Source of the DNA: Prorocentrum cordatum
Lineage: Eukaryota > Sar > Dinophyceae > Prorocentrales > Prorocentraceae
DNA length: 64,000 bases
Direction: 5' to 3'
Assembly: GCA_963575745.1 (NCBI GenBank)
Contig: CAUYUJ010018316.1
Location: 25,001 to 89,000 of the forward strand
Positions 4,367 through 59,399 of the stretch are shown piece after piece (position 1 is the first letter of the stretch; every line of letters begins with the position of its first letter). Under the pieces are notes generated by a model, which searched no databases, was not told the origin of the DNA, and saw only the letters and a program-made list of their open reading frames with translations. A program made the translations under genes and the position numbers.

Positions 4367-5069
4367 GCTGCTGTTACTGCTACTACCCCGACTACCACTA
4401 CTACTATTTGTACGGGTACTCATACTACTCATACTGCTACTACTACTACTACTACTACTACTACTGCTGCTACTACTACTACTACTGCTACGACTACTAC
4501 TACTACTACTCGTATTAATTATCCTTCTGCTGTTACCACTTCGATTACTAATGCTAGCGCTGCGGCTACACTATGCACTATTACTACGAATGCTACCAGT
4601 AATGCGAGTGCCGCTGCTGCGGCTACTACTATTACCGTTACTGCTACTACTACGAATACTACTACCACTGCTAACACTGCTACTGATACTGTATAATGTT
4701 ACTGCTACTACTGCCACTACCCATGATGCATTGAAGCTGATATCTTTACTTCTGCTTTGCACAAGTACATGTTTACAAATACGTAAGCGCACTCTGTAAA
4801 CTAGACCCCTGCACTACCTGTCATGATGGCACCTGTACTGCTACAGAAGTACTACGATTTGAATGGTTGATGCTGCTGATCCTGACTAATACTAATACTA
4901 CTGCTGCTATTGTTACCCCTGCTGTTATTACTACTGCTACTATGGCTGCTACAACTGCGACTGATGATTCCGGCATGCGCTCCTGCTACTACTAGTGTTA
5001 CTGTTGCTGATCTTGCAATTGTCAGTGTTGCGTCTACTGTTACGGCTATTGTTACTACTACTACTACTA

Positions 5070-39178: not shown

Positions 39179-39443
39179 GAGGGGGAGGAGGAGGAGGAGG
39201 AGGAGGAGGAGGAGGAGGAGGAGGAGGAGGAGGAGGAGGAGGAGGAGGAGGAGGAGGAGAAGATGAGGAGAAGGAGGGGGACGAGAATTCGAAGAATTTG
39301 GCGACGACGATGTCGAGTTTCGCGTAAGAGACGAGCGCCGCCTCAGGACCCGACGCGAAGGGCCCCAGGTGCGGCGAGACCAAAAGGAGGAGGAGGAGGA
39401 GGAGGAGGAGGAGGAGGAGGAGGAGGAGGAGGAGGAGGAGGAG
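39179..39443 (+). repeat. Two (GGA)n arrays at the left edge of the retrotransposon
   Basis: GGA runs at about 39,179-39,262 and 39,386-39,443. The second runs directly into the LTR boundary at 39445. Confidence 0.9.
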
Positions 39444-39444
39444 T

Positions 39445-39640
39445 TGCGCATGGGGTTAGAGTACAAAGGTACAGATACCCTGGTCCGTTGGTAGAGGAAA
39501 GGAGGGAAAGATGGATATCTTTTCCTCCTGCACGATCAAAGGTCAGATCGATCGAATCCAATGCCTAACCCAAACGGCCAGGCGCAGGAGAGGTGAGGAT
39601 AAGGAATATATATATATATATATATATATGAGGTTCTGCA
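39445..39640 (-). repeat. 3' LTR
   Basis: 196 bases. Matches the 5' LTR over its length with about 15 substitutions in some 160 aligned bases (hand count), plus an expanded (AT)n run at 39,606-39,629. Conserved inside are AGAGGAAAGGAGGGAAAGAT, CCTCCTGCACGATCAAAGGT and AAACGGCCAGGCGCA. Confidence 0.9.
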
Positions 39641-40979: not shown

Positions 40980-42044
40980 CTACCAATTCCTGCGACCAGC
41001 GAAGCCAAGCCTAACGCTGTGATCATGGATGTCACAAGCGTCGCGCATGTCTTCGATGGTCCAGGCCTTGTTGCCAGTCTCAGTGCGAGCGGCAGTCATT
41101 TGGTGGTGGAAACGTGGGTCATTCAGGAAACGCTGAATGAGATTGGCGAAGGGGTGGAATAGAGGTCGCTCATCTTCAATCTCGCCCATCAGCCTGCACA
41201 CGTGTGCAGGAGGGGAGCCTGCGTCAAACCACCTCTGATACCTCTCCGCAGCTTTCTTCGCGAATCTCCTCAAGGTATCCTTCTCCTGGCCAACCTTGGA
41301 GCGCTTGCCCATCATGTAGACGCGCGTTCCATCTGACATGTACCTGGAGACGTCGTCCTGGGAGAGGTTCGTCTTGATCCAGTGGTTCAACTGCTGGAGG
41401 TATGCCAGGTCGCTCTCCACGGCGCCACCTTGGCCTGTAGCACCTACAGAGACAGTGTACTGCCAGCAGATATCACAAATTGTACCGTTACCTGTGACGA
41501 TTCCCAGAGACAGGAAACGATCGCAATTCCGACATCGCGCTATATCATGCTGGATCTCTTCAGGAGCCCCGGAAGTAGCCAGGCCCCCAAGAGATCTCCA
41601 GCGGGTGATGCCACCGTCAGTGGAAGCAAGACCACGGCCGATTTGGTTCATTGCCTCACGATGGATCTCAGTGGTCGGACGGGAGGCGATCGATCGGCCG
41701 ACCCCCTCGATTTCGATCCTAGACAGTCTTTCCCCCGGTAGTCCTGCGTGCCCGGAGGTGTCGGTGTCCGCAGTATCCATATCGCCATGGTGTACGTTGT
41801 CCGTACGGATGCGGGTAGCCTCTGCCTGCAAGATGGCCTCGTTATCGCCCACCTTGCGGTCAATCTGCTGTGTCTCGGCTATGATATGTACCATGGTCTC
41901 TTGGTCGGGAACTGCAGAAGCAACACTACCTGGATCCCTGGGGATATCCTGCTTGGCGCCTGGATCGTCCTGGTCAGGCGCAGCAGGCGTTTCCACCGGC
42001 TCCTTCCATACGGGGAAGCCTGGGTTGCCATGTGTCCTGAAGCA
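40980..42044 (-). pseudogene. Accessory region segment F: CxxC...CxxC protein end
   Basis: Last part of the extra coding region. It is open in the same frame as the preceding segment and separated from it by an in-frame TAA (42045-42047). The listed start is a GTG/Val (41996), so this is a continuation and not an independent gene. It includes a two-CxxC motif (CRNCDRF ... CDICW, about residues 152-177), probably a zinc ribbon, followed by a helical, basic C-terminal half. Stop at 40980. Function unknown. Confidence 0.55.
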
Positions 42045-43304
42045 TTATGCGAAGAAAGCACGCAACGGATTGAGGGCAGGATGGTCCTGATAGATGGCAT
42101 CGTTGGTGAACTGATGTAGCTCCTTGATGCTGTCCAACAATATGATTCGGTACACTTTGGAAATCCATTGAAGTATGCTCGTGGTCGATTCCTCAATAAT
42201 CCCTGGGTCAAGGTAGTGTGCCATCATTTTGAAGAAACAATCTGCACTGCAAATCGGTAAGTCGCGTGCCCATTTATGGGTACGATCGTATTCCATTTGG
42301 TATGAATCTGTTTTTGGACCGAATTGTATCTCAAATCGCAGGCATGACTCCATCCTGTCCACCATAAGGTCGGCCCTGCCAGTGTGTAACTCAATAATTT
42401 GTTTTACCTTTATCATTGGAGAGTCCACCAGTAGTTCCGACGTCCAGCGGTATACGCGGTGGTCGTAAGATTGCAAAATCAATTTGGCATTGTCCTCTGG
42501 GTCGTAGTCGGGGTGGCTGAGGAAATTTTCTGGCGGACCAATGATATTATCAAGGATGGACGAGCCACCGTCCTCATTAGCGTGAATCTCCGCCGATAAA
42601 TCCGATTTCATGGTATCATTGGCTGCTCTTTCCTCGTCTGTTAGTGGTATGGTCGATATGTCGACGATGACAGTGACCAGAGGATCCTTGGATTGGCCTG
42701 CGTCGTGTCGGGATCCCTCGTCGTCTGCCGTGGGGTCTTCGGCAGGTGTCGCCACCAGCTCGTCGGGCTCGGGTGTCCGAGGAGCGGGGCGTCTGGTCGG
42801 CGTACGTGGGATACGTGGTTTGTAAATGCTCGGCATTCCAAGATATGGTAGATCACCTGCTTGTTTAAATTCACTGATCTGATCACTGCATGAAGATGGG
42901 CCCTGAAGTGCGGCATTCAAGTGAACTGGGTTGCTGTCAGCACGTACTGGCATAGCGAAGACAACGCCCTTGAGGGGCATATTTGTGTCGCAATACCATA
43001 TGTTTACCCATCGTAAACCGTAGTTGAGAATAGGTAATTGTATTGCAAAGAACTTCTCGAAGACTCCGAAGTGTATGACTGGTCCATAAATATGTCCCTT
43101 GTTCATGCGGGCCTTCGTGTTGTTGTCGCCCTTGGGGTAGTGATTGTCATAGTGGTAGAACTTAGTTGAGCCCCAATGTTTGACGATAGTGAAATCCCCC
43201 ATGCGGACATCGTTGAAGATCGGGCCTCGATCCCAGTCTTTTTGTGCAATCTTTGATGTAATGGGTCGCAGGGCCTCTCTGCAATGTGAGATAGCTATCA
43301 ACCA
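42045..43304 (-). pseudogene. Accessory region segment E, unrecognised
   Basis: 418 codons in the same frame as the Tpt1-like segment, joined to it across an in-frame TAA (43305-43307). The N-terminal part has aromatic/Gly-rich motifs (FYHYDNHYPKGDNN, WVNIWYCD). The middle is a Pro/Asp/Glu linker. The C-terminal part is helical, with WTSELLVDSPMIKV and a CFFKMMAHYLD motif. No family recognised. Confidence 0.5.
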
Positions 43305-44654
43305 TTATTTATCCTGTGTGTTGTGCCCGCAACTGTTGACCATATCACGGACAATGGCCTCATCCAAAGCGTCAGCGTCAGCTGTGTGGCCAGCAGGGGT
43401 CGCCCCCAGCTGAGGGGCGATTGGCCGCTGGGCCGATGATGCTGAGGCGGACTGTGTCTGTGGTTGCTGAGCCGTGTCGTAGGTCTTGCCAGTTGGGGCA
43501 ATCCCAGGAGGATCATCAATTGTGTCTGTTCCAAGGGGAACAGCGCGAATCTCGTATTTGCTCAATGGTTGTCTCGCAGCCAGCGGCGGGTAAACCCACG
43601 TAGTGCCTGTTTCTGGCCACATCTGCCTGCCATTCTCGCTGCGTGGTGTGAGACGGGGAATGGCGAGTCCTGCAGCGGCTGGAACCACACCCTCAGTCAT
43701 GATAGCGCCCTGTGCTCCCAGCCAAAATCTGCATCCAGCCTTTGTGGCAATATGCATGTCGATTACCAGCTCCACCTCTTTCTTGTGGCGCTTGAACTTG
43801 TACGATTGTACCGAGGTGTGACGGTTCTTGTTGGCATTGTGCATGTAGGTACTGGAACTGAAGAATGCTTCCGTGCGTTGTGAGCCTCGAAAATGTTTGT
43901 CTCTCTGGGAAGACGGATCAACATAGCCTGGAATAATCCCTGGCCCGAGGATGCTTCGCCAGGCACGAAGTGTCGTGCCGTGGTGGAGGTACTTCACGTC
44001 TGTCCATTGTAAACTCCCCCAGCCCATATTCCATGGTTTGGAGAGTGGATTGACGCAACTGTGGCCTCCAACGCATCTGATAGCGATAACGTTGTTCCAA
44101 TCGAAGCAGCTGGGATCGCTCCCGTCGGGGACTGGTCCGGCATATATCTCGATCCGGTTCTTCTCCGGGTCAATGCGCTTCTGGAACGCGCGAATGACAA
44201 AGATCAGGTAGTAATTAGTCCAGCACATGTATCCGTCTGGTTCACCGTCTTTTTTTAAGTGTGCCATGGACGCCTCGGTGGATGGTCCGTTGTGGGGTCC
44301 ACTACGCTCTTGAAATTTCCACTGAACCATGTCCTGAAATGATTGCCAATTGCTGGGGGTCTTCCAAGAGTGCTGCGCCGAGTTCGGCCATATGTTGACA
44401 CGTCGATCATTCAATTTGTCACTATGGAACTTTTTGTAGTGGATCTCATGACGTAGCATTGTCGCGATGTCTTTGCTCATCCAAACAGGATCTCCAAGCC
44501 ACTCATCGAGCAGCTCAGGTCCGCAGCGTGCCTCGTCGTACGGCGGGAGTGATATCCATTTCCATTCTGGGAAACAACCACACTGAACAATGTCAGGCGC
44601 ATGGGCGATCACACAATCGTCGCATGACAATTGGCTCGTCCAATCATCGTCCAA
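43305..44654 (-). pseudogene. Accessory region segment D with a Tpt1/KptA-like domain
   Basis: 449-codon segment. Residues about 217-330 (43,665-44,003) resemble the Tpt1/KptA family, RNA 2'-phosphotransferases of the ADP-ribosyltransferase fold. It has LHHGTTLRAWRSIL followed by a Gly/Pro turn, KHFRGS, and then the characteristic C-terminal core VELVIDMHIATKAGCRFWLG, AQGAIMTEGVVP. In the family this core reads roughly [VI]x[IV]D...G..F..S.NGV.LT..VP and binds NAD. The first core His (HGT) and the second (HF) are present. The remaining sequence carries several WxxxW and CxxC motifs and is unrecognised. The canonical role of the family is removing the splice-junction 2'-phosphate from tRNA using NAD. 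A role in a retroelement is not established. Confidence 0.65.
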
Positions 44655-45454
44655 TCATCGTCCTGCAAGCAAGCCATGCCATTGATCGCGGACGTGCTCC
44701 GCAACGGGGGAGGTACGTATGGATGATCATCCGCGTGACCTGCTTGGAGCTTGTACTCACGAGGGGTGCACGCATTGTCGAATGTCGGGAGCTGGCTGGT
44801 GCCCTCATGGGAGGAACGCTCGCAACAGTCTTGCCACGACAGTATGTATACCGCATCCGATTGCTGACCAGGAGAAGGTCCGCCGCCAGCAGGAACTGCT
44901 TCCAGCTCCGCATCCACGTCAGTGTCCTCGTCGGGGAGCGGGGCTGACGCGGGTGTCGGGGGCGGGCCTGGTGGCGGTGGGTCTGCAGGCGTGCTAATCG
45001 GAAGCGGACCAAGTGGCAATGGCTCTGGTAGCGTGACAATCGGCTGCGGGCCTGGCAGCGGGCCTGGCGGCAGTGGCTGCCTGTCCTCGCTCTGCTGGTC
45101 TGTCCCAGCTGCCGCGGAGCCTTCGGGGGGCACCGCGCCGAAGGCAGTGGTTGGGGCGTCGGCCGTGAGTCCCAGGGTGATACGATCCAAGGCATTCTGT
45201 GTGTAGAAACCTTCGCACGCCGTAATAGTTTCTGAGTTGTCAATGCGAGGTCCGACACGATGGGGGCACAATCTGCTGCGCTCTGCAACGAGGCGTGATT
45301 TCGTCGGGTCGTCATCTCCTGCCATGTCGTTAATCTGGAGCAGGAACTGTTCGTATACAGCCCAAGTAACAGCGTGTGGGTCCTTGGTGTCCTTCACGAT
45401 TTTGGTGTGAAAGAGCTCCTTCTTTTTCGTCTGATTCCCAAGGTGCCCACGCAC
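44609..45454 (-). pseudogene. Accessory region segment C, Pro-rich linker, frameshifted
   Basis: 281 codons in a different frame from both neighbours, implying a frameshift near 45,430 and another near 44,640. The first 90 codons are protein-like and continue the preceding segment (EQFLLQINDMAGDDD). Residues about 110-180 are a Pro/Leu/Gly repeat (PLPPGPLPGPQP-type), a likely flexible linker. Function unknown. Confidence 0.45.
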
Positions 45455-46652
45455 CAGGGTAGTCGTTGATCAGGAGGAGAAGCTGATTGAACAACTCCTC
45501 GTATGCCTCACCATATGGATCGCTAGCAGGAATAGTTTTCGTCGGATCCGGTGCTGGTGGCTCTTTTGCTAGTCCAGGAATGGGCATGCATGGATCGCTC
45601 GCGGCCAACGGCATCGATTTCGGCAACGTGCCACTGGCGCACGAGGCCATCCAGGCACAATGAGCCATCTCCCCTGCAGTCTGAGTCATCAGCGTGGTGA
45701 GGCTGAGGTTCCTCTTCCATTCGTTAGTCGTCTTCTCACGAATTTGAAGATCTTCCATAATCTCTGTGGCCTGTGTGTAGGCCTGTGAATCCGTGACTGC
45801 TGTCAGGAGAGGAGGTCTGAATGGGTATGGCTGTGATGGTAATGACTGGATCAATGCACAGAAATTGCGGTAGCATACTGCATCACAAAACTGAGTCGTC
45901 ATCGTCGCCAGATTGTGATTATTCTGCTTTGAGTGCCAAGCCGAGGGCGTGACTCTGTCGTACGCATCAACCCAGTGGTCTGAGGGAAGAACTGTAATAC
46001 CACGCATTTGCATAGTCCTGATCAGGTCACCCGTGTGTTAGTCGAACTTTGGGTGTACGCCCCATTGTGCCGCTTTGCCTGGCCCCATGACGGTGGGGCA
46101 ACGGAAGTACTGCATCACGTCGATGAAACGTGACAAGTCCACTTTCACGTGTACTGGCATAAGCGTCGGGACGCCGCCCTCGCAGTCTATCTTCATGAGC
46201 TCGCGCACGATGGTAGGAGCGCGGTCCTGATGGCGACGGGTGTCCAACATGGTCTGACCATGATTAGCGCATGCAATGCCGTTCGCGCTCCAGACCACCA
46301 TGGCGATGATGACCCTGCAGTAGTGTCTTTGTTTCACGCATGCAGGAAAGGCGTTAGCCCAATATTCCCATACGACCTCATTCAATTTACGCCACTCTTT
46401 TATGGAAGCATTGTCATTCATCAGCGACAAGCCTCTGGCCGTGCGGATCATGATGATCATGTTGCGCTGTTCGAGTGTTGACTCAAACTGCGACGCCAGG
46501 ATAGCTGCGATACGGTTCTCCTGTGCCTTGACAGGCTGCTCGCGGAGTTGTGCCACATCGCAGCGGGTGTCGCCACCAGCCCCTGGCAATTGAACGCAGT
46601 CCTGGCCAATCGCCGTATCGTTCTGTTTTGAACCATCCTTTGTAATTGCCAA
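45330..46652 (-). pseudogene. Accessory region segment B, helical, unrecognised
   Basis: One open frame interrupted only by an in-frame TAA at 46038-46040. The upstream 204 codons include a Gln/Arg-rich helical stretch and CVKQRHYCRVIIAMVVW. The downstream 227 codons include a Trp/Cys-rich stretch and PIPGLAKEPPAPDP. The join to the preceding segment is a frameshift near 46,640. No family recognised. Confidence 0.45.
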
Positions 46653-48381
46653 CGGAGAATGCCCACATCATAATGTCGTCGCGGATAGCGGTCGACAAGT
46701 GCTCGAGAGTGGCGCCGCCGATGTATCCTGCACGGCTGAGGCACGGCATGAATAGAGGCACGAGGCCAACATGCGATGCCTTGGCGAGGGCATCTCGCTG
46801 CTGTGGGCTGTTGAGCTCGTCGATGCCGTAGCTTGGGTACTTCTTGTGCGCGGCGGCCTTGATACCTTTCCTGGGATACATGATCCATGTGGAGTCCGTA
46901 TACAAACCTCTCCATTTGTATGCGTGCCCTGACGGGCCGAAGGCATAGTGAAGGAGAAGTCCCAGGTCCTCCTGTATGATCCCATGCCATCCGTTGTCTG
47001 AAAGAAGAGTGGACACCAATCGACCACCACAAGACGCGTTGTATTTTGCTTGTGCCAGCTCCAGCGGGTCAACGGCAGCACCAGGGGTAAGACCAGGGTC
47101 CTCCATGGTAGGCGTTTCTCCTGCGAGCGCAGATCCTTCCTCGCATGGCTGCCAATGATTCTCGTCATACTCTGGGAGGATTGTCCAGCCATCTTGGTGA
47201 TCGGATGGTGTTGCCACCGCCTTGGGGCCTGATCCGATCCCTCCAAATCCTCCGCGCGCGGTCAGCCAAGTGCCGAGCTTGCGGCGGAATTTGCTTGTCT
47301 GGTGGATATCGGAGAACGCCCTCACTTCGGTGACGAGGCGATCCTCGACAATGTGGCCGAGGTGTCCCGCCGTGTCCGATGTCCTGGCCATGCCAGGTGG
47401 ACGCGCGGGTAGTTTGATCGCAGCGCGATCAAGTTTCGGAGCGTAGCTGGGGGTCGTTAAACCATGGTTGTACACATCTTGAGGCGCACAAAGCCCGCCC
47501 TTGTACACCTGATGTGTATCCTGAACGCTGTCTTCAGAATATTGCCCAAGAAATGCGCTGCCCACTGTTGACCAATCGTTGTGCATCATCATCCACTCTG
47601 CCTTCAACACCACCGTTGCAAGCTCCATTGGTGGACACTTGCGGTGTGAGTTTGGAATCACAGCACGCGAGTGATCATGTAAGCCACGAGCGTTTCCTTG
47701 TACAGAAGAGTTACGCGTGAAGAAGCTGGAGATCATGCGCATGGCCTTTATGAATGACACCCACGGTGTGGCCGTGGTCGCACTGTATCCATAGCGGGCG
47801 TCGCCGCCGACTCCTCCAACAGCTTTGCCGATACAACTCGTCGCGTCGATGGACGCGGAGCGGGTAACTTCGACAATGGTGGATTCGTCGGGTACTCGTA
47901 GATCATACTCTGCACTACGATCAAAGCGCAGATGATGTACGTAAGTGAAGCCATCCTCGGGGTCGCGAGGAACGACCCGTCTGAGCGTGGTACGTGAAGC
48001 CCACGCGATTGTCGTCCTTGGCGTTCGGGTCGTAGCTGGCGTCGTAGGCGATGGCCTAGCCGTCGAGGTGGAGCGGCGATGCCTGGTCCATCTCGGTGAT
48101 GGGGGGATCGGGGCTAGAACCGATCTCACTTGATTGCGTCTCGCGCACAGCGAGCAAGATGCTGGTGAGCTTCGTCGCCCGAGTGGTAAAACAGCTGCGG
48201 CACGATCGTATAATAAGTGTTCTAGACCTCTCTGTACCATGCGGTGGTGGGGGAGGATGACGAGGGCGTCTACCGTGCGGCGAACGTGCCCTCGCTCGAG
48301 GTGTTCGCGAATCGGTAGCCGCAGCAGGAACACCGACATGGCACATGCATGCACATACTCCCTCGTGATTGGCCTGTCCAA
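46483..48381 (-). pseudogene. Accessory region segment A, unrecognised
   Basis: 632-codon open frame immediately downstream of RNase H, in the same frame as the RNase H tail but beyond its stop at 48406. The first 130 codons look out of frame (Arg/Thr/Pro-rich). Protein-like sequence begins near 47,965, where RVVPRDPEDGFTYVHHLRF continues a neighbouring frame, so a frameshift lies there. It is then continuous to about 46,640, with WMMMHNDWSTVGSAFLGQYS, a Gly-rich linker and GLLLHYAFGPSGHAYKWRGL. No recognised family. This begins the extra 7.4 kb that ordinary copia elements lack. Confidence 0.5.
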
Positions 48382-48405
48382 CGCACAAGAATCCGCATTC
48401 TGACC

Positions 48406-49385
48406 CTACCTCGCCCCATTTTCTCTGTCGGTAAGTAATATCTTACATATTTCCGGACATCCATCCAGTTTTGGAAGTTCTGCGACATGAGGTAAACCAT
48501 CGGGCCTCTGAGGCCCTCGTAGTGGTCTCCTTGGATCCTTTGGAGCGCACTGTAATGGGGCAACAGGAAAGATGAGCGAGTGTTCCAATAGATCCCTCCA
48601 GAGGTCTGCTTTCTTTGGCCCAAAATGTTTAGTCATCATATCTGCAATTTGCTCTTTTGCACCTACACACTTGAGCTCAATGTGTTCAAATTGGCATGTC
48701 TCACATATCCAATCCAAGTTAATACGATGAGTACGATCAAGATGACGAAGTGCGGGTGCACGTCCCTTTTGGGCAATCTTGATCACGGCCTGGCTATCCT
48801 CGAGGACGATGAGATGCACTTTGGGAGAGCTGCTCTCCTGAGCAGGCTCTGGTTCCACGTGTAGCACGGTGCCCTCATGGGATATCGCGCGCCTCTTTGG
48901 AGGCACAGGTAGCTCCGTCTTCAGCGGTAGCTGCCTACGGCTAGGAGAAGATCCCCGTGTAGGGGATGCCTTGCGAGGCGATGGATTACGCTTCTTCCTT
49001 TTGGCGGCCGGCGTCGGACATATCGCCGTAGCGGCGCGTCCCAGGCAGCCAGGCAAGTCGTCTTCTCTTTGCAGGTGTCGGCAACCTCCACCACGGCCTC
49101 CCAGAACGAGAGTAGTGGTAGTCCCTCCAGTCGTAGCGCCGAGTCAAGAGCAACAATCTCGGACTCTGTGGATGAGTGCGATACGACCGTTTGTTTCTTG
49201 CACACAGCGTTGACGGGGAAGAACGTTGTGGGTCCAACAAGCGCCGCGAAGACGCCAGTAGTGGACTTGGAGGAGGTAATGCAATCGGCGAACGAGGCGT
49301 CAGTGAAGAGCATGATGGATAATTTGTGTGAAGGGTCGCCAATCCATCCATGTAAACAATGGTACGCGTCGTTCTGATGTAGCAT
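48406..49385 (-). pseudogene. Copia RNase H domain, frameshifted
   Basis: Two overlapping frames carry the domain. At 48921-49385: LFTDASFADC, SSKSTTGVFAAL, FFPVNAVCKKQTVVSHSSTE, SEIVALDSAL. At 48406-49056: LIVLEDSQAVIKIAQKG, RHLDRTHRINLDWI, GAKEQIADMMTKHF. These are the standard copia RNase H landmarks in order, so a frameshift falls between them near 49,056, inside an Arg/Ser/Lys-rich insert. The enzyme degrades the RNA of the RNA-DNA hybrid. Confidence 0.85.
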
Positions 49386-50728
49386 ATCAGCCGATGAAGG
49401 CGTTTATCACACGTGGTATTCCATTTGGTGATTTCTCTGGCTAGCATACATACTGGATGTAAAAGATCAAAACGACAGCAGCGTGTCAGATAGAGAATCT
49501 TCATCAGTACACTCGCCGCGTCCTGGCCGAGGATACCCTCGTCGGAGTAGTCAGACTCGGTAAAGGGGGTGTCCTCGATGCCAGGAGTCTCTGCGTCGGG
49601 TAGGTCATCATATGTGACTGTCGTGGATTGTGTCGTAGTGGAAGGTCTGTCAACCGATCCAGCTGGGCTGGATGATCGCGAACGTGCGTTGAGTGCGCGG
49701 GTGGGTCTTACGACCGACCCGGAGGAGCGAGGCGATTTGGATCGCGAAGCCCTCGGTGAGTCAGACCGTTTACGACGTGACCCTGGCCCGTGGGTGCGCT
49801 TGGAGGCGCACTCCAGGTAGCGCTTAATACATTGATCAGTAAAACCAAGCATGTCATGTCGTGTTCCACGAACTTGTTTAGCTGCATGGTATTCTCTATC
49901 ACTGTGCGCAGGCAACATAAGTCGAATGGTGGACATTCTTTTGTCGAATACGTTCTGCGGTACATCGTATGCCTGTTGTCCACAGACAAGGTATTGAGAG
50001 TATGGAGTAGGCGGATCCAAATCCATGCCGCTTTTGCGGATATGATCCCAGCCGGCTTGTAGGTTGATGGCTGGTCCTGCTAGTTTGAAGTCGTCCACGT
50101 ATACTGAAAGTATCAATCCCAGTTTGTTGTGTCTCCACACACATTCCCAGCCTGGGATAGGCTCAAATCCAACACTTTCCAGACACGTGCGACACTTTCT
50201 TTCCCAAAAGACACCTGCGAGAGGGTGTCCGTATAGTGCCAATCGTAGTCGGCACGCGGGATTCTTGCATTGAGACCAAGATGCAGGTTGGCGCCACTTG
50301 GGCATGGTAATCCAAGTATCGACTGGGTCGATTCTTCCATCTCCGTATAGCAATGCCTGCGCGCATGCGCCAGGTGCATCGCTCTGCTCGCCAGCATAAT
50401 TTGGTAATAACGCGGTGGCGTCACAGAGTTTGGGAGCTTCGATATGCGACGCACTGGGTGCGGCATCGGCGAATATGGCGGCCTAGCCGGTTTCATCTTT
50501 GCCGGTGTTGCCCAGAACCACCACTCGGCCCCTGAACTTACGTAGTTCAGGAGGAAATTCTTCATGTTTGACTGAAGATAGCTCCAAGATGTTGAAGAAG
50601 TGAACTTTCTTCCCAGTACGAATCGCCTGTGATTCAATATCATATTTTTCAGCAACAGTCTCCAACATCCACGGTTGCTTCTTTTCAAGGCGCTCGTATT
50701 CTTTGCGCACGGCCTCCTGTGCACGCGG
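48986..50728 (-). pseudogene. Copia reverse transcriptase, with in-frame TAG
   Basis: Reverse transcriptase in the same frame as the integrase C-terminal segment. The N-terminal fingers region (KEYERLEKKQPWMLE, FRGRVVVLGN) precedes an in-frame TAG at 50483-50485. The frame then continues without a gap (PSASHIEAPKLCD, GACAQA). RLRLALYGHPLAGVFWERK and the catalytic SVYVDDFKLAG (about 50,085-50,110) follow, then a conserved thumb/connection with CIKRYL. A long Arg/Ser-rich insert (SRRKRSDSPRASRSKSPRSS) separates RT from RNase H, and a CRFDLLHPVCMLAREITKWN motif precedes the frameshift into RNase H. The catalytic Asp pair is intact. Confidence 0.85.
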
Positions 50729-52546
50729 TTATGCGGCAACTTCTTTCTTACTCAAATTTATAGTAACAAGGGCTGGGCGTGCCCATGGTGAGTCAGGAAT
50801 ATTATCTCTGCGCGCCGGCGTGCATGTCGGCCTTCGTGGCATAGTGGGCACTGCTACGGACGGGGTGAACTTGCGCGTGGGCGGGTTCACGGCCCCGAAG
50901 TCGTTCCCCTCACTGTCAACAAGTACCAGAGCACGTGCGACTCCAGCAGGCTGCGGCGAGGGTTGGCGGTAATATAATACTGTAGAAATGTCACGTGGTC
51001 CACCAGGTAGTTTGGCACACAGAATTTCTTTGTTGGTCGCGCCCTTGACTTCCTCGTCACGAATGACAGCGCCGCTGTCCGTATCGTAAGTAATCCGTCG
51101 TTCCACGGTATTCCATGTGGGTCCACCAGCTGTAGTAGTACGGATTGTTTTAACTTGTTTGTCCTGTCGGGTCCACGCTCGAAGTGCAGCTCGTTCGTGA
51201 GTCTCACGAGCTTGTTTGATATCTTCGGCGTACTCAATATCCTTCTTTTGCTTTCCGCGAGATAAGGTCTTCCAATGCTCGGGAAGAATGTGGCATGGAC
51301 GCGTGGTAGTCTGTACACGGGTCTCGCGGCCGCGGACCACCATTTTGCCGTCTGGCAACATTTTAGGGAGCTCATAGAATCGAACTAAGCCGGTCCAAGG
51401 CTCGCTCGGTTCTCGGTGGTCTGTGGCGCTAACACCATCCCAAACATCGCGAAAGACACTTTCTCCGTCGAAGGTAGAAGTCGTCTCGGAGTCTCGTGTC
51501 ACATCGAGCTGATCAACAGGTACAGGTATGTTCATAACGTCGTCTGTTGGTATGAACAATTTCCTGCGTGGAGTACGGATGTGTCGGATGACGCAATATC
51601 CACGCTGTTCCCAGTAGTCGGGCTCCGGTGCCGGTGCAGCAACTTCGGAGGCCGATGGATGAGTATCAGCGAGGTTGTCGTCCATCGTCATCATAGATGG
51701 ATCATCCCACTCCTCTGGGTAGGCAAGTGGAAGGTCGGGCATAGGTTTGTCGCCCACGGGACGAGAAGTAGATGCCTTGACCTCGTCGTGTGCCTCGGGG
51801 TTGTGATGTCGCAGGGTACCGTCTTTCACAGGGAAGGTGAACTTGCCGTCGGGGATGCTGATGTCTTTGACTCTGTGTACGTGGCACAAGTCGCCGTCTG
51901 GGTTCTTGGCGCATGTAGCCGCATCCAAGACAAGGTAATCTCCAGACCAGCGTCCACCTGAGTGTAAATGGTAACCCATAAATAACCCTTCCCGAGTATT
52001 CCGTTTGAACTTTGCAGTCTCGTTATTAATCTCGGGATTGAGGCATATCCAAAAGATCCGAGCACCAAATGGAATGCAGCGCCCGGGGAAACTTTCACCA
52101 AAACGTATTTCATGAGCTGTATTTTCAGCATGCCCGTCGCTGAGGGCGGCAACGCCCGCGGATGGATGCGCAAAATTATGTCCACAGCGAAAGGCTTGCA
52201 TGGCCTCTTTCCACCATTCGTGCCCCAGACCAGACATGTGCAACACAGCCCTCGTGCCGAGGATGACGATCTTGACAACGCGCTCAATCAATCCATTTGT
52301 TTGTGGACGATGAGGAGTGCTAGTGTCATGTATCCATCCCAGTTGGCGGCATGCCTTCTGAAGCTCTCCAGAACTATCTGTATACGTGTGCTTCACCTCA
52401 TCGTTTGCGGCGATGCACTGCTGGAATGATGCCTTTTGTAGTAGCTGCGTCTTTATGTGATGCTGGGTACGCCATGAAGATGCTGGTGTATTTGTCCAGT
52501 ACGACGAGTGCGTACTTGTCACCGTGCTTGTCAGCAGCATCGTCAT
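50729..52546 (-). pseudogene. Integrase core (second half) and integrase-RT linker
   Basis: 605-codon frame. It holds the second and third acidic residues of the integrase triad (TYTDSSGEL and TNGLIERVVK, about 52,285-52,385) with HDTSTPHRPQTNG between them, then the copia-type GARIFWICLNPE and GLFMGYHLHSGGRWSGDY region. An acidic linker leads to RT. It ends with an in-frame TAA (50729-50731), after which the same frame continues into RT. A one-base frameshift near 52,438 separates it from the first integrase half. Confidence 0.85.
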
Positions 52547-53255
52547 TGGCCAAAACGATATGGTCGCCAGTCAGAGCCTCCCCGAACTTCTTCGGGACGA
52601 AGGCCTCGTAGGCTGTGTCCTCGTCGGCGGGGGCTGCCGGTGCACGTGGTTTGTGCTGTCGTCGGCACGGAGCGTTCTGCGCCATAGTGCGAGAGCAAAT
52701 CTCACAGTCTGGATGTTTCGGACTGTGGGTCATGTAAGGCATAGGATCGATCGGTTTCTTCTGTCTGTTTCGAAGAACGCGATCACTATCATGGTGCACT
52801 TTGATAAGCGTATCCGTCGGCAGATCCTCGAGGGAGGTCGACGTGATGTCGGTATCTGCTTGAGCTGTATCTGCAGGCCCCCCGCATGTGGGAGGAGAAC
52901 AGTGTATCTGAGACGTAAGCGAGTCGTTGTGTGTATCCACGTTGGACTCGGCATTATTTGTGTCGGGAGGTTTTTCGACCGTGGCGGTCCGTGCTCCTCC
53001 TCCCTCGCTCATTTGTAGGTGGCGACTGCTCTGTAGTTTTGCAACGCCAACATATGTCGTTGCAGCGTGCGGATGAACGCTTGCGCTGACGACGTCTGGG
53101 TGCTGACGAAGTGCACAGACGTGGTGGTCTTCCCGCAAAGAACACGAGAGCCGTCGATCGTCCACCACAGCCAACTCCAAACGAGGAGGCCACGACGCGC
53201 CAAATGCGTGTCGACAACTCTTCTGAAACAATAAGATGAGATCGAAAAAGTGCAT
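52398..53255 (-). pseudogene. Integrase N-terminal half (HHCC and first catalytic Asp)
   Basis: Contains the zinc-binding region (MTHSPKHPDCEICSRTM, an HxxxH...CxxC pattern) and the first catalytic Asp (ALTGDHIVLAND), then YALVVLDKYTSIFMAYPASH. The domain continues in another frame from about 52,438. The first about 90 codons (53,000-53,255) are of uncertain frame because coherent-looking sequence also appears in the other two minus frames. Confidence 0.8.
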
Positions 53256-53289
53256 GGGCGCAGCATGCCGAAAAATGCGGGCTGAGCAG

Positions 53290-54037
53290 CGTCAAAGGAG
53301 GAGGAGGAGGAGGAGGAGGAGGAGGAGGAGGAGGAGGAGGAGGAGGAGGAGGAGGAGGAGGAGGAGGAGGAGGAGGAGGAGGAGGAGGAGGAGGAGGAAG
53401 AAGACGAGGAGGAGGAGGAGGAGGAGGAGGAGGAGGAGGAGGAGGAGGAGGAGGAGGAGGAGGAAGGAGGAGGAGGAGGAGGAGGAGGAGGAGGAGGAGG
53501 AGGAGGAGGAGGAGGAGGAGGAGGAGGAGGAGGAGGAGGAGGAGGAGGAGGAGGAGGAGGAGGAGGAGGAGGAGGAGGAGGAGGAGGAGGAGGAGGAGGG
53601 GAGGAGGAGGAGGAGGAGGAGGAGAGGAAGAGGAGGAGGGAGGAGAGGAGGAGGAGGAGGAGGAGGAGGAGGAGGAGGGAGGAGGAGGAGGAGGAGGAGG
53701 AGGAGGAGGAGGAGGAGGAGGAGGGAGGAGGAGGAGGAGGAGGAGGAGGAGGAGGAGGAGGAGGAGGAGGAGGAGGAGGGGAAGAGGAGGAGGAGGAGGA
53801 GGAGGAGGAGGAGGAGGAGGAGGAGGAGGAGGGGGAGGGGAGGAAGAGGACGAGGCGGAGGGCGGCCTCGGCAAAATCCGGGTTGCGACACTTCGGCCGC
53901 TTTTCCCAGGGCGGGCTGGTTACGACAGAATTCGCCTATTCTGCTGAACTGGAGGAGGAGGAGGAGGAGGAGGAGGAGGAGGAGGAGGAGGAGGAGGAGG
54001 AGGAGGAGGAGGAGGGAGGAGAGGAAGGCGCAGAGGA
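53290..54037 (+). repeat. Large (GGA)n array inside the retrotransposon
   Basis: About 555 bases of near-pure GGA (53,298-53,853), 95 bases of unique sequence, then GGA again (53,950-54,018). It lies at the 3' side of the LINE-like fragment and may be its tail or may have expanded after insertion. The poly-Glu, poly-Arg and poly-Ser frames over it are repeat translations. Confidence 0.9.
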
Positions 54038-55100
54038 CTAGGGCTCCTCGTGGTCCGCGGCCCACGTTAGTCTGGCCGCTAACGCCCACGAGGCTCGAGC
54101 CCCGCTCACCTTCGCCCTCCGGCGCGCTATGCGCGCGGCGCTCCCTCTCGCCACAATGACGGCGATGCGATGAAGCATCTCCCGCCGCACCGCGGCCGGC
54201 TCCCGGCCCTCCCTGCTCGCCACCGCCGTCGCCAGCGCACGGACCGCGGCGTCCGCGCCCTTCGACATGCCGCCCTGGGCCTCGAACGCGACCGGCCTGA
54301 ACTGGAGGCCGTGCTCGCGGCATCGCTCCTCCGTCTGGTTGCGCTGCCGCTTCTGCTCGTCGTACGCCTCGGCCGCGAGCCCCGGCGCCATGGCCGCGTC
54401 CGCCCAGTGCGACGGCCCCAGGGCGTTGATCAAGGCGAAGTCGAAGCAGACCTTGTCAGCCCTCGCCGCGCGGCTGCCGTCAGGCAGAAACCGTGCTAAG
54501 GTGATGTGGGGGATCACCAGCACGTCTGCCGGGCGGTGCTCGTCCGCTGCCTGTCGTGCTTCGCGTGCCCCGGGGTCATCCAGCAACCCTGCTGCCTCCA
54601 GCGTGGGGCGCAGCCCGCCGCGAGCAGAGTAGTCGTAGAAGACGTCTCTGATCGCATTATGCACAAGCGTGGCGTCCCCTCCACTCATGCACGACAAGCA
54701 ATGCGTACCCTTCGCGTCCAGCGGGGCCGCGCACAGCGGGCACGCGCTGCCCTCATCCAACACATCGACACCGAGCAAGGTCGCGACGTTGTCTGCGAAC
54801 TCGCCCGCGGAAAGGTTCATGTCAAGTGTCCTGGATGGGGTGAGCTCGTACCGAGTCCCCGCTCCCTGCGCTGAGTGCGCGCTCAATCGAACCCCGTCGG
54901 CTGGCTGGCTCTCCTCACGCCATGCCTCGACTGCCTTGCTCCGCAGCTTACCTCCCAGGTAGGCCTGGGTCAACTCTGCCCGGGTCGCCACCCCGCGGGC
55001 GTCGCGGCCCAAGGTGGCTGCCAACCTGGCCGCGGCGTCCGCCAGAGGCCTGCCTGGTGGTTGTATCGTCACCAAATCGTCGAGTCGTAGTTCTGGAGCT
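54038..55100 (-). mobile_element. LINE-like C-terminal nuclease-type fragment inserted in the copia element
   Basis: The frame 54038-55201 begins with copia protease sequence and changes near 55,090 into GC-richer sequence. This carries CPLCAAPLDAKGTHCLSC (zinc CCHC), GGDATLVHNAIRD, RPADVLVIPH, KVCFDFALINAL and HGLQFRPVAFEAQGG with AAVRALATAVASREG. This combination is typical of the C-terminal part of a widespread non-LTR retrotransposon protein family, where PADVLV and the D/E-x-K-like residues suggest a restriction-like nuclease. No RT domain is present, so it is 5'-truncated, as LINE insertions usually are. It lies in the same orientation as the host element and, by chance or selection, in frame with protease. 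Confidence 0.7.
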
Positions 55101-55107
55101 CTGTTAG

Positions 55108-55585
55108 TGACGGGAACCATATACCATTGGCCCCCCGGACCCTGAAGCAAGTAGCCCAGCTCTGGATCCCAAAGCTGCCGAAAGCGATCAACTTCAATCA
55201 ATTGTCCAACTGATAATCACGATTGGCAATCTGGCAAGGCGAGGGCTGAACTCTTCAAGCCCACTTCAGGTGGCTGTATGTCATAGTGCTCGTTGACAGT
55301 ACGATCACCATTGGCAGTTTCCAGAATATGCTCCTCGCGAATAGATGTGCGATCCGATTCGGTCTGCGTCAGCTCGTTTTTATCCTGAATATGGTGCGCA
55401 GATCCACTGTCGAGAACCCAGGAGCGTGTCAACGCGGCGGTCGCTCGTGGAGGGTCGACTTGCGAAGTCATGGTCGCCTTCTGGTGTGTCTCGGAGGACT
55501 CTATGGTAGAGTCGTCGGAATCTGGAATCGCAGTTGGTGTGGCCACCGACCCCTTGTCGTGTCGGTAGTCATGTAGATCTTTATA
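55108..55585 (-). pseudogene. Copia aspartic protease with two interrupting TGA codons
   Basis: In the Gag frame. The active-site motif WVLDSGSAHHIQD is at about 55,390-55,415, followed by LETANGDRTVNEHYDI and then ALPDCQS-TGA-LSVGQLIEVDRFR, the usual conserved protease end (TGA at 55217-55219). A first TGA (55586-55588) sits at the Gag/protease boundary. The frame is otherwise open to the LINE-like insert. The catalytic Asp is intact. Confidence 0.8.
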
Positions 55586-58500
55586 TCATAACTTTGCTTC
55601 CCGTTGACAACGTTGTAGGGCGTCAAGACTTTGTTTCCACCACCATTGTGGCAGCGGATCTGGCACTTTGACGATATTGCCCTCGTTCGGCTTCTCCATC
55701 CACTTGCCCAGAATGGACTTGCCAGAAACGATGTACGGGTAGTATTCCACGGTATGTGTGTCGAAACGTATCCGACGCCGTGGTTTGGTAGATGCTGCCT
55801 TGGCCTTGTTGGCGGCCATGAGAGTCTTGTCGCGCATGACGTAACTGCGGTCGGAGTGGCGCGGGCGGCGATAGTTGGCAGGAGAGCGTGCCCTGAACTT
55901 GGGAGAACCACGGGGCGAACCGCGGCTCGTGGAACGTCGGTCACGTCCTCTGTCGCTGCCGTACGATCTGTCGCGGCCACGTGGGCTGCCGCGCCCTCCG
56001 CCACGCCCGTCTCGCCCTCGAGAGGAAGATCGCGAAGATCTGTCGCAACGACTTCTCGGCTGGCTGCGAGAGTCGGGGGACCTCCTGGACGATGAGCGAG
56101 ATCGGTCGTACTGGCGTCGGTTGTCACGTCTATTGTATGAGCCCCCCGCATTGCGGGACCCCCCGCGCTGTGGAGAGCGTTGGCTCCCCGATCCGCGGGA
56201 CGGCGGTCGGCCGCGACTGTCCTGACTGGAGGTCCGTGGGCGACTTGGGCTTCGCTCAGGTGTCTTCGTACCAGGTGCCAGGTGCGCGCATTTGCATTTG
56301 TCACCCTTGGGGCACTTGTTCTTTGCGAAGTCTCTGCGCTGCGCCTTGTGAGGGATGTTGCACTTGTCGCCTCTGGCGCAGGTGTTGCGCTCGGCGAACT
56401 CGAAGCAAAACGGATTCGATGCCGGCTTCCTGGGATTCGCAGGGGCTGAGACGCTGCGGCGAGAGTTGCCACCAGCGGTCGATGCTCTGGAAGATCTGCT
56501 GCTCTTCCAATCCCTGGAGAAGGTATGTAAAGCTTTGCATCGCTCACCATTGCGACAGTTGCCTTTCTTCCAGGCAGCGCAGACATGTACCTGATAGCGA
56601 GTCTCATGTTCGTACCGTAACTTGGTTTGATTCTTTTCCAGTTGTTTGAGCTCCAGTACGTCCAGGACGCGCTGTCGGAGCCAATCATAGGTACGATTCG
56701 GGCCGCTGGTCTTCATGCGCTGGTATTCGTACATATCCTGGTTTATCCAGGCATGCCGGCGAATCTGCGTGCGAAACAGAAATTCCAAGATCTTTGGGTC
56801 GGGTGCCTCTCGGCAATCCAACAGTAAAGCGTCCCAATCAGTAATGAAACGTGACACATCTTCATCTCTCATCCTCAGTTCTTTGAGGCGCTCGAAATCA
56901 TGCAGGTCGTCATCAACCTCTGTCACTTTATAGGACTGTATGATGTGCCAGTAGATCTGGCGTCCTTTGAGCATGCGTCCTGTGTTGTGCTCTCTGGTCT
57001 CGATGAGCCTGATCTGGTAGCGCAAGTCGGAAGATAAGATGTCGCTGAGAGCGGTCGCGAGTTTGCAATCGATGCTCTCAAAGTCTCCGCTGTCTTGTGA
57101 GTCTTCGAAAGTGCACTCGGGCTGTTCGGCCACGCATAGGAAGGCATATGCTTTGGATGGTCGCCCTGAGGCGGCTCCGAAATTATTCCGTACCTGTTGC
57201 TGCCACTCAAGCAGCTGTGTGATCTTAGGCAAGACAGGGACTCGGACGGTGTCTGGCTCCTTTATCGGTGTAGTAGTATTGACCGAAACCGCAGACAATG
57301 GTTGTGAGGGTATCGGTACACCGTCGGTAGTTGGTTCTGTGCGCACGGAAGACACTTGGCGTGTCTCTGCTGAAGCTGCCGCGGAGGCTGCTCCTGGTGA
57401 CGTACGTCGTTGTTGTCCTGCAGAAGCGCGTGGTGCTTCAGCGGACGCTGCCGTCGGCCTGTGCAGGTCGGTTGCAGGTTGAAGGTGAAGTATGGTGTCA
57501 TTGGTGTAGTCAATCAGCTGATTTGTCCAGCTCGTCATATCTTCGTGTAGCTGGTCCACTTTTTGGCGTGTGTACTCGTCAGTATCCCGAGAGCGTTGTG
57601 ATTGCCGGTCAAGTCGTTGCTCGTGGGCTCGGAGACGGGCGTTGTGCGCCTCCAACTCACTGTCCAGACGTGCGAGGCGCTCCTCAACACGTACCTTTCC
57701 AGTATCTCTCTCACGAAAGACCTGGGAGAGCTCAGACTGCGCGTGGTCCGCCGCCTTCTCGACCTCCTGCAACCTGTCAGTGAGGCGGGCGAAATCGTAA
57801 ACCGTGGGAGGAGAATCCAGCTGGCCAGTCTGGGCTCGTCCGACACGCAACTCTGCCAGGGCGTCCTGTACACCAAGAAAACGCTGCTCGATTTCAGAGA
57901 TCCGGTTAGCGAGTGGCTGCACGATCGCGTTGGTCGCATCAAGCCTTTGAGTGATAACTCTCTCAGTATTTTGCAACATGCCGATCAGGTTCGACGAGTT
58001 GGCGTGTGCTTCGGCGCGAAGCGTCGCCGTAGTGCGGTCCATGTGGGATCGAAGATCGTTGATCTGAGGCTGAACGTCGCCAAGGTCGGTGGCCTCGGCT
58101 GGTGGTGGTCGGTTGCGGAGCTGGTCGTGGATCTCGTCGTGGAGAATCCTGACTGCTGAAACGCCTGTGTCGCGTACGATCACAATCTGTTGCTCCATCT
58201 GCGCGAGGTAGTTGCGCAGGTTCTCGACCGTCGCCGATCGTTCACCTGAGTGTGACATCTCACGGTCAATCTGGTACTGCAGCTCACTTAAGATGCGGCG
58301 ATATTCAGCGATCCTGGAATAAATGATCACTAAGGCGCCGTCGAGATCATGGCGTGGAGCAGCAGTATTGGCAGCGTTCGTCTGAACGCTCTGCATCAGT
58401 CCAGAGTACTGTCTGGACACGAAGGTTCCAACCTGGTCTCTGAGCTCAGCTATTTCGCCTGCAGCGGACGTTGCCGCCAGCAGGTCATCTGAGATGGAGA

Positions 58501-59137
58501 GGTGGGGAGCGTCAGCTCCCCTCTGCACCCTCTCGCGAGGAGTGCATGGCCTCTGCGAGGCAGCACGCGGACTCGACCTCTTCTCGTTGTATGGGCCTGT
58601 GGCCCCGCGACGGTTGCGCAAGGACGAGCTGCGGCTAGGGCCGTGCGTGTGTGGTGCCTGATGAGATGATACCTGGGGGTACTGCGTCTGCGGCTGCGCC
58701 GTCACTGGTCGACTGAGTTCCTGGAAGGTGGCTACGTGCTCCGCTACAGGAGCGGTCGCAGGGCTGGTCATGCCAGCACCTGTGGTCCATCGGCGGTCAG
58801 CGCGAAAGCACCCTGGAGTATCAGGACCAGTGGGGCTCGCGCCCGACACAGTTGGGATTGCTCCCGACGGAGGAGGAGATGGAGGATCGAAGGTAGGCGT
58901 GTGAAATTCCCGACTGCCTGCTCCTACTCCTTCTCCTGTCCCCCCGCGGGCGGCGTGGCGGTGAAGTTCAGCAGCTAGCCGCGCCTCGGGTCCGTCGGAG
59001 CTGTGGGGGGTACCTGGGACACCTACACGGTCCACACTAAGGCTCTCCAACTCATCACCGAGCCGTCGCGCCGTCGGCGAGCCCAGACGCGAGGCCCCGA
59101 TGGACCCCTTACGGCGCATGCGCCGCTTGGGTTCCAT
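55586..59137 (-). CDS. Gag protein of the copia element, three CCCH zinc knuckles
   Basis: 1,183-codon uninterrupted frame starting 65 bases inside the 5' LTR. Residues 1-190 are Ser/Pro/Arg-rich. About 250-570 is a long helical, probably coiled-coil region (REERDTGKVRVEERL-like heptads). About 700-840 resembles the copia Gag core (IYWHIIQSYKV, RFITDWDALLLDC, YDWLRQRVLDVLEL). Three CCCH fingers follow: CX7CX5CX3H near 852-870, CX8CX5CX3H near 911-929, and a third near 936-952 lacking its first Cys. The tail is Arg/Ser-rich (RSRSSSRRS) and Gly-rich, likely RNA-binding. Gag forms the particle and binds the element RNA. It is longer than usual copia Gag. It ends at a TGA, after which protease continues in the same frame. 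Confidence 0.9.
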   Translation of the reverse strand: MEPKRRMRRKGSIGASRLGSPTARRLGDELESLSVDRVGVPGTPHSSDGPEARLAAELHRHAARGGTGEGVGAGSREFHTPTFDPPSPPPSGAIPTVSGASPTGPDTPGCFRADRRWTTGAGMTSPATAPVAEHVATFQELSRPVTAQPQTQYPQVSSHQAPHTHGPSRSSSLRNRRGATGPYNEKRSSPRAASQRPCTPRERVQRGADAPHLSISDDLLAATSAAGEIAELRDQVGTFVSRQYSGLMQSVQTNAANTAAPRHDLDGALVIIYSRIAEYRRILSELQYQIDREMSHSGERSATVENLRNYLAQMEQQIVIVRDTGVSAVRILHDEIHDQLRNRPPPAEATDLGDVQPQINDLRSHMDRTTATLRAEAHANSSNLIGMLQNTERVITQRLDATNAIVQPLANRISEIEQRFLGVQDALAELRVGRAQTGQLDSPPTVYDFARLTDRLQEVEKAADHAQSELSQVFRERDTGKVRVEERLARLDSELEAHNARLRAHEQRLDRQSQRSRDTDEYTRQKVDQLHEDMTSWTNQLIDYTNDTILHLQPATDLHRPTAASAEAPRASAGQQRRTSPGAASAAASAETRQVSSVRTEPTTDGVPIPSQPLSAVSVNTTTPIKEPDTVRVPVLPKITQLLEWQQQVRNNFGAASGRPSKAYAFLCVAEQPECTFEDSQDSGDFESIDCKLATALSDILSSDLRYQIRLIETREHNTGRMLKGRQIYWHIIQSYKVTEVDDDLHDFERLKELRMRDEDVSRFITDWDALLLDCREAPDPKILEFLFRTQIRRHAWINQDMYEYQRMKTSGPNRTYDWLRQRVLDVLELKQLEKNQTKLRYEHETRYQVHVCAAWKKGNCRNGERCKALHTFSRDWKSSRSSRASTAGGNSRRSVSAPANPRKPASNPFCFEFAERNTCARGDKCNIPHKAQRRDFAKNKCPKGDKCKCAHLAPGTKTPERSPSRPRTSSQDSRGRPPSRGSGSQRSPQRGGSRNAGGSYNRRDNRRQYDRSRSSSRRSPDSRSQPRSRCDRSSRSSSRGRDGRGGGRGSPRGRDRSYGSDRGRDRRSTSRGSPRGSPKFRARSPANYRRPRHSDRSYVMRDKTLMAANKAKAASTKPRRRIRFDTHTVEYYPYIVSGKSILGKWMEKPNEGNIVKVPDPLPQWWWKQSLDALQRCQREAKL

Positions 59138-59190
59138 CGAAGCCGCGTGCGAGATCGCGACGCGGGGTTTGATAAACTGTGATCTTTACA

Positions 59191-59202: not shown

Positions 59203-59399
59203 TGTGTATGGGGTTAGAGTACAAATGTACACAACCCCTGATCCGCTGGTAGAGGAAAGGAGGGAAAGATTGATATCTTTTCCTCCTGCACGATCAAAGG
59301 TCTGATCGATCGGATCCAATACCTGAGCCCAAACGGCCAGGCGCAAGAGAGGTGAGGATAAGGACTATATATGAGGGTATTATACGGGTTCCATTCACA
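59203..59399 (-). repeat. 5' LTR
   Basis: 197 bases; on the element strand starts TGTGAATGG and ends ATACACA. It contains a TATA-like CATATATAG about 30 bases from its start, a possible promoter, and the CT-rich complement of AGAGGAAAGGAGGGAAAG. It matches the 3' LTR with about 15 differences and without the AT expansion. Confidence 0.9.

Follow-up and report, generated by a model that had tools for sequence, protein, structure and literature searches.

The 64,000-nucleotide stretch of Prorocentrum cordatum DNA analyzed here (contig CAUYUJ010018316.1, positions 25,001 to 89,000; the window) contains a decayed member of a high-copy, copia-type long terminal repeat (LTR) retrotransposon family of about 18 kb, which carries a large accessory protein in a third, 3′ open reading frame (ORF). 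Homology identifies one part of this protein as a diverged Tpt1/KptA domain with an RNA lobe and an NAD+ lobe, which is named Tpt1/KptA-like because its HxH motif is missing. The genome also has a second high-copy family, copia-type as judged from its encoded domains, in which a complete Tpt1 lies between the gag-like and protease-like parts. The domain may be a maintained one that binds RNA and NAD+ and acts on phosphorylated RNA ends or junctions, a reading that we give an even chance of being right. Captured enzymes in retrotransposons are already known; among the matches listed from the open-licence literature, there is none with an RNA 2′-phosphotransferase in one.

The domain and its fixed place in the element

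The ORF that harbors the domain and the extent of the domain are as follows.
43305..44654, minus strand: ORF of 449 residues with the Tpt1/KptA-like domain (Pfam PTS_2-RNA)
43620..44486, minus strand: Tpt1-like domain by alignment, residues 57-345, with LRH, EKxRI, IRCVGGHS, HHGT, QR, and GCRFWLGAQGAIMTE

A reading of the window made from its letters only (the sequence-only reading) had proposed a Tpt1/KptA-like domain here, and the profile comparison of the 43,305-44,654 translation bears this out. PTS_2-RNA is matched at 31.2 bits (E-value 2.8e-7), above the cut-off of 26, with residues 190-322 covering profile positions 73-177. No Pfam family is matched at E <= 1 by the six other ORFs of the seven scanned in the 3′ region. 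The comparison sample consists of 10 other copies, which were retrieved piecewise and chosen to be varied and stop-free over the match. PTS_2-RNA is the best Pfam match in all 10, at or above the cut-off in eight and below it in two. When the family profile is set against a group made up of KptA, one row of the second family, and two host Tpt1s, the probability is 87% (E 4e-6).

Tpt1 takes off the 2′-phosphate via an ADP-ribosylated intermediate and depends on an essential Arg-His-Arg-Arg tetrad (PMC6333775). E. coli KptA, host Tpt1 genes, the second family, and 11 window-family rows were aligned, and MLRH, EKxRI, IRCVGGHS, HHGT, QR, and CRFWLGAQGAIMT of the window family fall onto Tpt1 motifs. 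The likeness to Tpt1/KptA proteins (PF01885; E. coli KptA, human TRPT1, CthTpt1) comprises the RNA-lobe Arg-His, the IRxxxGHS arginine, and HGT, together with the NAD-lobe arginine and the G-x-x-F-W/C...G core. The tetrad residues 68, 69, 193, and 260 are each kept in 11/11 window-family rows of our own alignment, and the HGT motif retains its histidine in 11 and its threonine in 10 of these rows. Among the motifs singled out by the sequence-only reading, HGT and the GCRFWLGAQGAIMTE core are thus conserved. Its "HF" (residues 254-255) is not: it is kept in just 2/11 rows, with HS, RD, YY, or HH at the site in the others, and is therefore not the HxHF motif of Tpt1. Unlike the known proteins, the domains of both families sit within a retrotransposon polyprotein; the window family is also without HxH, and the second family has inserts and a tryptophan at the place of Arg139.

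Low ratios of non-synonymous to synonymous change (dN/dS) in the sampled copies indicate that the window-family domain is selectively maintained. In the comparison that the sequence-only reading had proposed, non-synonymous change is far lower, with a median dN/dS of 0.152 over the 55 pairs of the 11 rows (range 0.095-0.566) and of 0.150 without the window row. Third codon positions are 2.3-3 times more variable than first or second positions in the 11 rows.

The genome searched for further copies is the window's own (4,128,499,153 bases, 21,875 contigs). The copy lists hold top-scoring places only, so that an unpaired reverse transcriptase (RT) in them is no sign of a copy without the domain. 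For the ORF with the domain (KptA ORF), the best 94 of 2,433 candidates were scored, the window included, and the other 93 are 71-90% identical to it. Fifty-two of the 94 are stop-free over the match, 20 of these in frames of at least 1,000 residues, the longest of 1,997. The best 86 of 22,410 candidates were scored for the RT ORF 48986-50482 and the best 69 of 14,290 for part 1 of the 3′ ORF, again with the window included. The rows of the window element that serve as landmarks are given below.
59203..59399, minus strand: 5′ LTR, about 197 nt, from repeat alignment and comparison with the LTR of copy C15043
48406..50751, minus strand: RT and RNase H region (ORFs 50113-50751, 48986-50482, 48406-49143), with a weak RVT_2 match and RNase H assigned by position and motif
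46483..48405, minus strand: 3′ ORF part 1, 640 residues, no Pfam domain
39445..39613, minus strand: 3′ LTR, aligning part, with (TCC)n as its 3′ flank

The KptA ORF lies 5,614-6,033 bp downstream of the RT on the same strand in 28 of 29 same-contig pairs (window, included, 5,828); in the remaining pair the two are separated by 320 kb, and the contig in question bears a normal pair as well. The distance from part 1 to the KptA ORF is 3,703-3,859 bp, downstream and on the same strand, in 26 of 28 same-contig pairs (window included), and part 1 itself lies 2,046-2,091 bp downstream of the RT in 15 of 17. The four exceptional pairs of these two comparisons are distant or on opposite strands. A frame of 1799 residues in C16685 is listed for both the part 1 and the KptA place and is presumably one frame.

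The LTRs enclose this arrangement. The direct repeats of the window, 39445-39613 and 59203-59372, are 90.6% identical over 170 nt, and as the pair encloses both the RT and the extra region, the latter lies between the RT and the 3′ LTR. An LTR search (best 40 of 1,641 candidates scored, window included) yielded three further pairs spanning 18.0-18.1 kb: in C13200 and C15043 both LTRs surround the KptA ORF, 18.1 kb end to end, and in C15451 the pair surrounds an RT. In C15043, 193 of 194 aligned LTR bases are identical, and because its LTRs differ at only this one base, the copy is a recent insertion. The RT is separated from the 3′ LTR by 10,869 in the window, 10,860 in C15451, 10,927 in C19901, and 14,330 in C558, and one of ten LTR-KptA distances is out of line (C470, 20,872). 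Fixed spacing to RT and LTR, together with LTR-bounded copies that contain the domain, therefore makes the 3′ region a part of the element. The sequence-only reading had assigned about 7.4 kb of extra 3′ coding sequence to the retrotransposon, and this is confirmed by related copies in its own genome, which have that downstream ORF at a constant position. A nested insertion with its join at about 48,400, which that reading had allowed for, is ruled out by the RT-KptA and part 1-KptA spacing and contradicted by the RT-to-3′ LTR distances.

A second family with a Tpt1 domain

A search of the genome with the PTS_2-RNA profile gave 2,877 candidates, the best 150 of which were scored and are all above the cut-off. 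The seven strongest places (L001-L007, 186-96 bits) appear to be host Tpt1 genes or broken copies and comprise at least four kinds of Tpt1-like gene (L001, L002/L004, L003, and L005-L007), one with a stop. The other 143 of the 150 listed places probably belong to the second family, score 71-92 bits, and lie in frames of up to 2,943 residues (two listed at 4,482 are unverified); 30 of the 143 were looked at. Most listed places match profile positions 4-177 with 84-92 bits, and the weakest match positions 59-177.

In the C16964 copy (L009/L010), the first ORF encodes in order a CCHC knuckle (19.2 bits, below the cut-off of 20.8), the Tpt1 domain, a RING (RING-H2) finger, and a protease-like stretch that was recognized by eye. 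The RING finger reaches 34.4 bits (cut-off 27) and shares this long first ORF with the complete Tpt1. ORFs downstream of the Tpt1 domain match RVT_2 at 34.3 and 39.5 bits (cut-off 31.6) in C1962 and C10025. The position of Tpt1 and RING between gag-like and protease-like parts sets the family apart from Ty1/copia. A C5 DNA methyltransferase-like stretch (LCGGEGGISELAFSRGL) can be seen by eye in the second ORF (L009:1114-6117, minus strand), with no Pfam match.

Twenty-one copies were retrieved around the domain; 20 are open over it and one has a stop. The tetrad positions are kept in 21, 21, 21, and 20 of the 21, and the full tetrad in 20. The family matches the full profile and has HGT, and the HxH positions are kept in 18/21 and 21/21 copies. 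Its median dN/dS is 0.19 (208 usable of 210 pairs); the three closest pairs reach 0.4-0.9, as would be expected if their changes arose once the copies had inserted. Identity to KptA and the host Tpt1s amounts to 25-36%, with inserts, and PDB matches are limited to two entries of tRNA 2′-phosphotransferase 1 (best 3.7e-13).

Upstream of the first ORF, only the short motif CTTTAAGGGTAG is common to eight copies, and two copies share more. A search with the initial 198 nt of this element (best 40 of 1,635 candidates scored) gave eight LTR-like pairs on the same strand, 15.63-15.71 kb apart, none of which encloses a Tpt1 place among the best 150 of 2,877. Single 198-nt places are located 4.7-5.0 kb upstream of a listed domain in C16964, C13819, and C11336 and 11.0 kb downstream of one in C19043, all of which fits an element of about 15.7 kb. 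The place 18.7 kb downstream of a listed domain in C1239 does not fit this length.

An 81-residue stretch of 36-38% identity is common to the second family and the integrase-RT interval of the window element; on this basis the families appear distantly related, and they carry the domain at different positions. A single origin of both domains was considered with a tree of 23 rows, which gave no resolution and leaves one capture versus two undecided: the branch that bears the window rows measures 2.2, the deep forks stand at 64/32, and a long-branch warning applies. It is conceivable, though on balance doubtful, that two distantly related LTR families captured Tpt1/KptA separately and at different places, both keeping the RNA-end tetrad under selection. 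If the captures were separate, retrotransposition in this lineage would be genuinely hindered by phosphorylated or cleaved and religated RNA ends, and retroelements would use Tpt1 for RNA repair or counter-defence, as proposed for phages.

In a large protein set, homologues were found neither for the window ORF nor for a 1260-residue piece of the second family. The second-family domain has one homologue there, a protein of 190 residues labelled Pyramimonas sp. AAC (EukProt; 71% over 63%), which also contains the family's linker downstream of the domain. This match may reflect a transfer, or the data set in question may be contaminated. Viral contigs searched with the domains of both families gave no match.

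Proposed function and alternative explanations

The proposed action on RNA ends would start with the cleavage of the element's RNA or tRNA primer by host RNases that leave cyclic phosphates, followed by religation. The domain would then bind RNA and NAD+ and either remove 2′-phosphates (most likely) or leave an ADP-ribose cap. It would act on the genomic RNA of the element or on its tRNA primer, and the cleaned RNA would let reverse transcription read through. This action is likelier for the second family than for the first. The presence of a second family with a more canonical Tpt1 makes a role in the RNA cycle of the element likelier than a chance passenger. The findings suggest that the spread of such elements is affected by damage to, or modification of, RNA ends.

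Several points weigh against this reading. The window family is only 16-27% identical to the other Tpt1s compared, and its profile, set against the second family alone, gives a probability of 4% (E 0.011). A PDB search with the family profile returns a Probable RNA 2′-phosphotransferase no better than at E 0.46, a single-sequence PDB search with the window ORF did not find Tpt1, and an AlphaFold model made without an alignment has no usable fold (mean predicted local distance difference test score, pLDDT, of 29). An HxH after the last tetrad arginine is typical of Tpt1 (VHL at this place in E. coli KptA, HIH in the host gene L002); it is lost in the window family, where EAFF or similar is found instead. 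In the second family, the place aligned to the NAD+-phosphate Arg139 is a tryptophan in 21/21 copies, and a neighbouring arginine could replace it. The dN/dS of about 0.15 in the window family is rough, with a median dS of 0.94 near saturation, and single pairs reach 0.57. The choice of 10 stop-free copies biases both dN/dS and the tetrad counts toward conservation, and 42 of the 94 scored KptA-ORF copies have at least one stop within the match.

The domain belongs by homology to the ADP-ribosyltransferase (ART) fold family, and the element could thus encode an ART effector that ADP-ribosylates a host protein, DNA, or another target and so blunts silencing or aids integration. The window family has kept HGT without HxH, weak PARP matches occur in 2/10 of its copies (13.2 and 12.4 bits, below the cut-off of 26.7), and a RING finger, which is a host-directed kind of domain, shares its ORF with the second-family Tpt1. 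Such an effector is nevertheless rather unlikely, as the RNA-binding tetrad, including the RNA-lobe Arg-His, is kept in 11/11 rows and a pure protein-modifying ART would not need these residues. A domain without catalytic activity, which would instead belong to the particle of the element as a structural module or one that binds RNA or NAD+, would fit the missing HxH of the window family and the missing Arg139 equivalent of the second, but tetrad and HGT are strongly conserved in the sampled copies and make this the more improbable of the two alternatives. An unselected passenger, or unrelated DNA nested beside the retrotransposon, would explain the stops, frame slips, and diverged LTRs (90.6%) of the window copy and is most improbable in view of the constant distances to RT and LTR across many copies, the presence of the domain in the young copy C15043, the dN/dS of 0.15, which disfavors a passenger without selection, and stop-free frames of up to 1997 residues.

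The presence of the domain in these elements has parallels in known systems. Dinoflagellate and charophyte retrotransposons of the LINE, DIRS, and Gypsy kinds captured DNA methyltransferases, with LINE and DIRS as the dinoflagellate cases, and the abundant Copia elements of Symbiodinium are described without them in the available portion of the source (PMC5890265). Common to these elements and the present ones is a host-type enzyme in ORFs that is kept by selection; the difference is a copia-type element with Tpt1 here. KptA is also present in (jumbo) phages, a few DNA viruses, and the polyproteins of two positive-strand RNA viruses, Beihai picorna-like virus and Botrylloides leachii nidovirus (PMC9503650). 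There, too, parasite genomes use KptA, twice within a polyprotein, which is a precedent in favor of the proposed reading, but the parasites are viruses, and KptA in a retroelement goes unmentioned in the accessible part of that paper. The terms Tpt1, phosphotransferase, PARP, and ADP-ribos- are all absent from the main text of PMC6338049, which deals with accessory domains of retrotransposons. PMC4053983 and PMC3549820 contain Tpt1, KptA, and retrotransposon together, in the excerpts available merely as a Pfam name in tables. Among the listed matches of the open-licence literature, no Tpt1/KptA (RNA 2′-phosphotransferase) in a retrotransposon polyprotein was found. Open domains in young copies offer a direct and testable link from RNA-end chemistry to retrotransposition, in genomes that are filling with copies. 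PF01885 counts in such genomes may be mostly retroelement copies and not tRNA-splicing genes.

Layout of the window copy

The window family resembles Ty1/copia in its LTRs and probably also in a putative RVT_2-type RT (weak in the window copy) and, as far as motifs indicate, in the order of protease, integrase, RT, and RNase H. It differs in its length of 18.1 kb and in the large 3′ ORF beyond RNase H. The order was read from motifs by eye in the window element, where protease, integrase, and RNase H have no Pfam match and RVT_2 in ORF 48986-50482 reaches 24.5 bits (E 2.4e-5), below the cut-off of 31.6. The remaining rows are the following.
55586..59185, minus strand: gag-like ORF, 1199 residues, with CCCH-type zinc fingers (zf-CCCH 22 bits, cut-off 20.5)
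55217..55585, minus strand: aspartic-protease-like stretch (WVLDSGSAHH), motif by eye, no Pfam match
53296..55216, minus strand: (AGG)n arrays and ORF 54038-55216, after the protease-like stretch and before the integrase region, no Pfam match
50729..53291, minus strand: integrase region of two overlapping ORFs, D..D..E-like motifs by eye, no Pfam match
44609..46667, minus strand: 3′ ORF part 2 (ORFs 46038-46667, 45330-46037, 44609-45469), no Pfam match
40980..43304, minus strand: 3′ ORF part 3 (ORFs 42045-43304 and 40980-42044), no Pfam match

The product of 55586-59185 is probably gag, judged by its position. The stretch 53296-55216 is perhaps a nested insert of about 1.9 kb, and its ORF 54038-55216 presumably resembles a piece of another retroelement. 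From the aligned 5′ LTR start to the RT, 8,890 is measured in the window, 8,956 in C13300, and 6,925-7,005 in four copies (C14587, C11336, C15451, and C14766). As the RT-to-3′ LTR length is normal and the LTR-to-RT length is longer, the extra 1.9 kb or so of the window copy lies 5′ of the RT, and since C13300 is equally long there, the excess may be a shared feature instead of a nested insert peculiar to the window copy.

The 3′ region from 48,405 to 40,980 is filled by minus-strand open frames. The sequence-only reading had seen such frames after RNase H, and they are present; its description as mostly one frame did not hold, as three frames are used. One stop separates ORF 48405-46483 from the RNase H ORF, whose frame it continues, and the frame switch is located within 46,483-46,667. 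ORFs 44654-43305, 43304-42045, and 42044-40980 form one frame with two stops, which is also the frame of 46667-45330. Part 2 is interrupted in the window copy by a stop and frame shifts, and part 3 contains CRNC...CDIC at about 41,470-41,535. The part 1 match ends at residue 593-595 in most listed relatives and at 636-640 in about ten.

The start of the 5′ LTR, TGTGAATGG, was set by aligning to the 194-nt LTR of C15043. A candidate spliced-leader match in the LTR (59342, minus strand) agrees at 15/21 positions with the dinoflagellate spliced leader, and its 6 mismatches put it at the estimated chance level; it was rejected. No tRNA gene is found within the 64-kb window. A TCC-rich microsatellite borders both copies examined, the window copy (39380-39444 and 59400-59440) and C15043 (L070, L071), with only a short TCC run on the 5′ side of the window copy; these borders look as if the integrase had a target preference.

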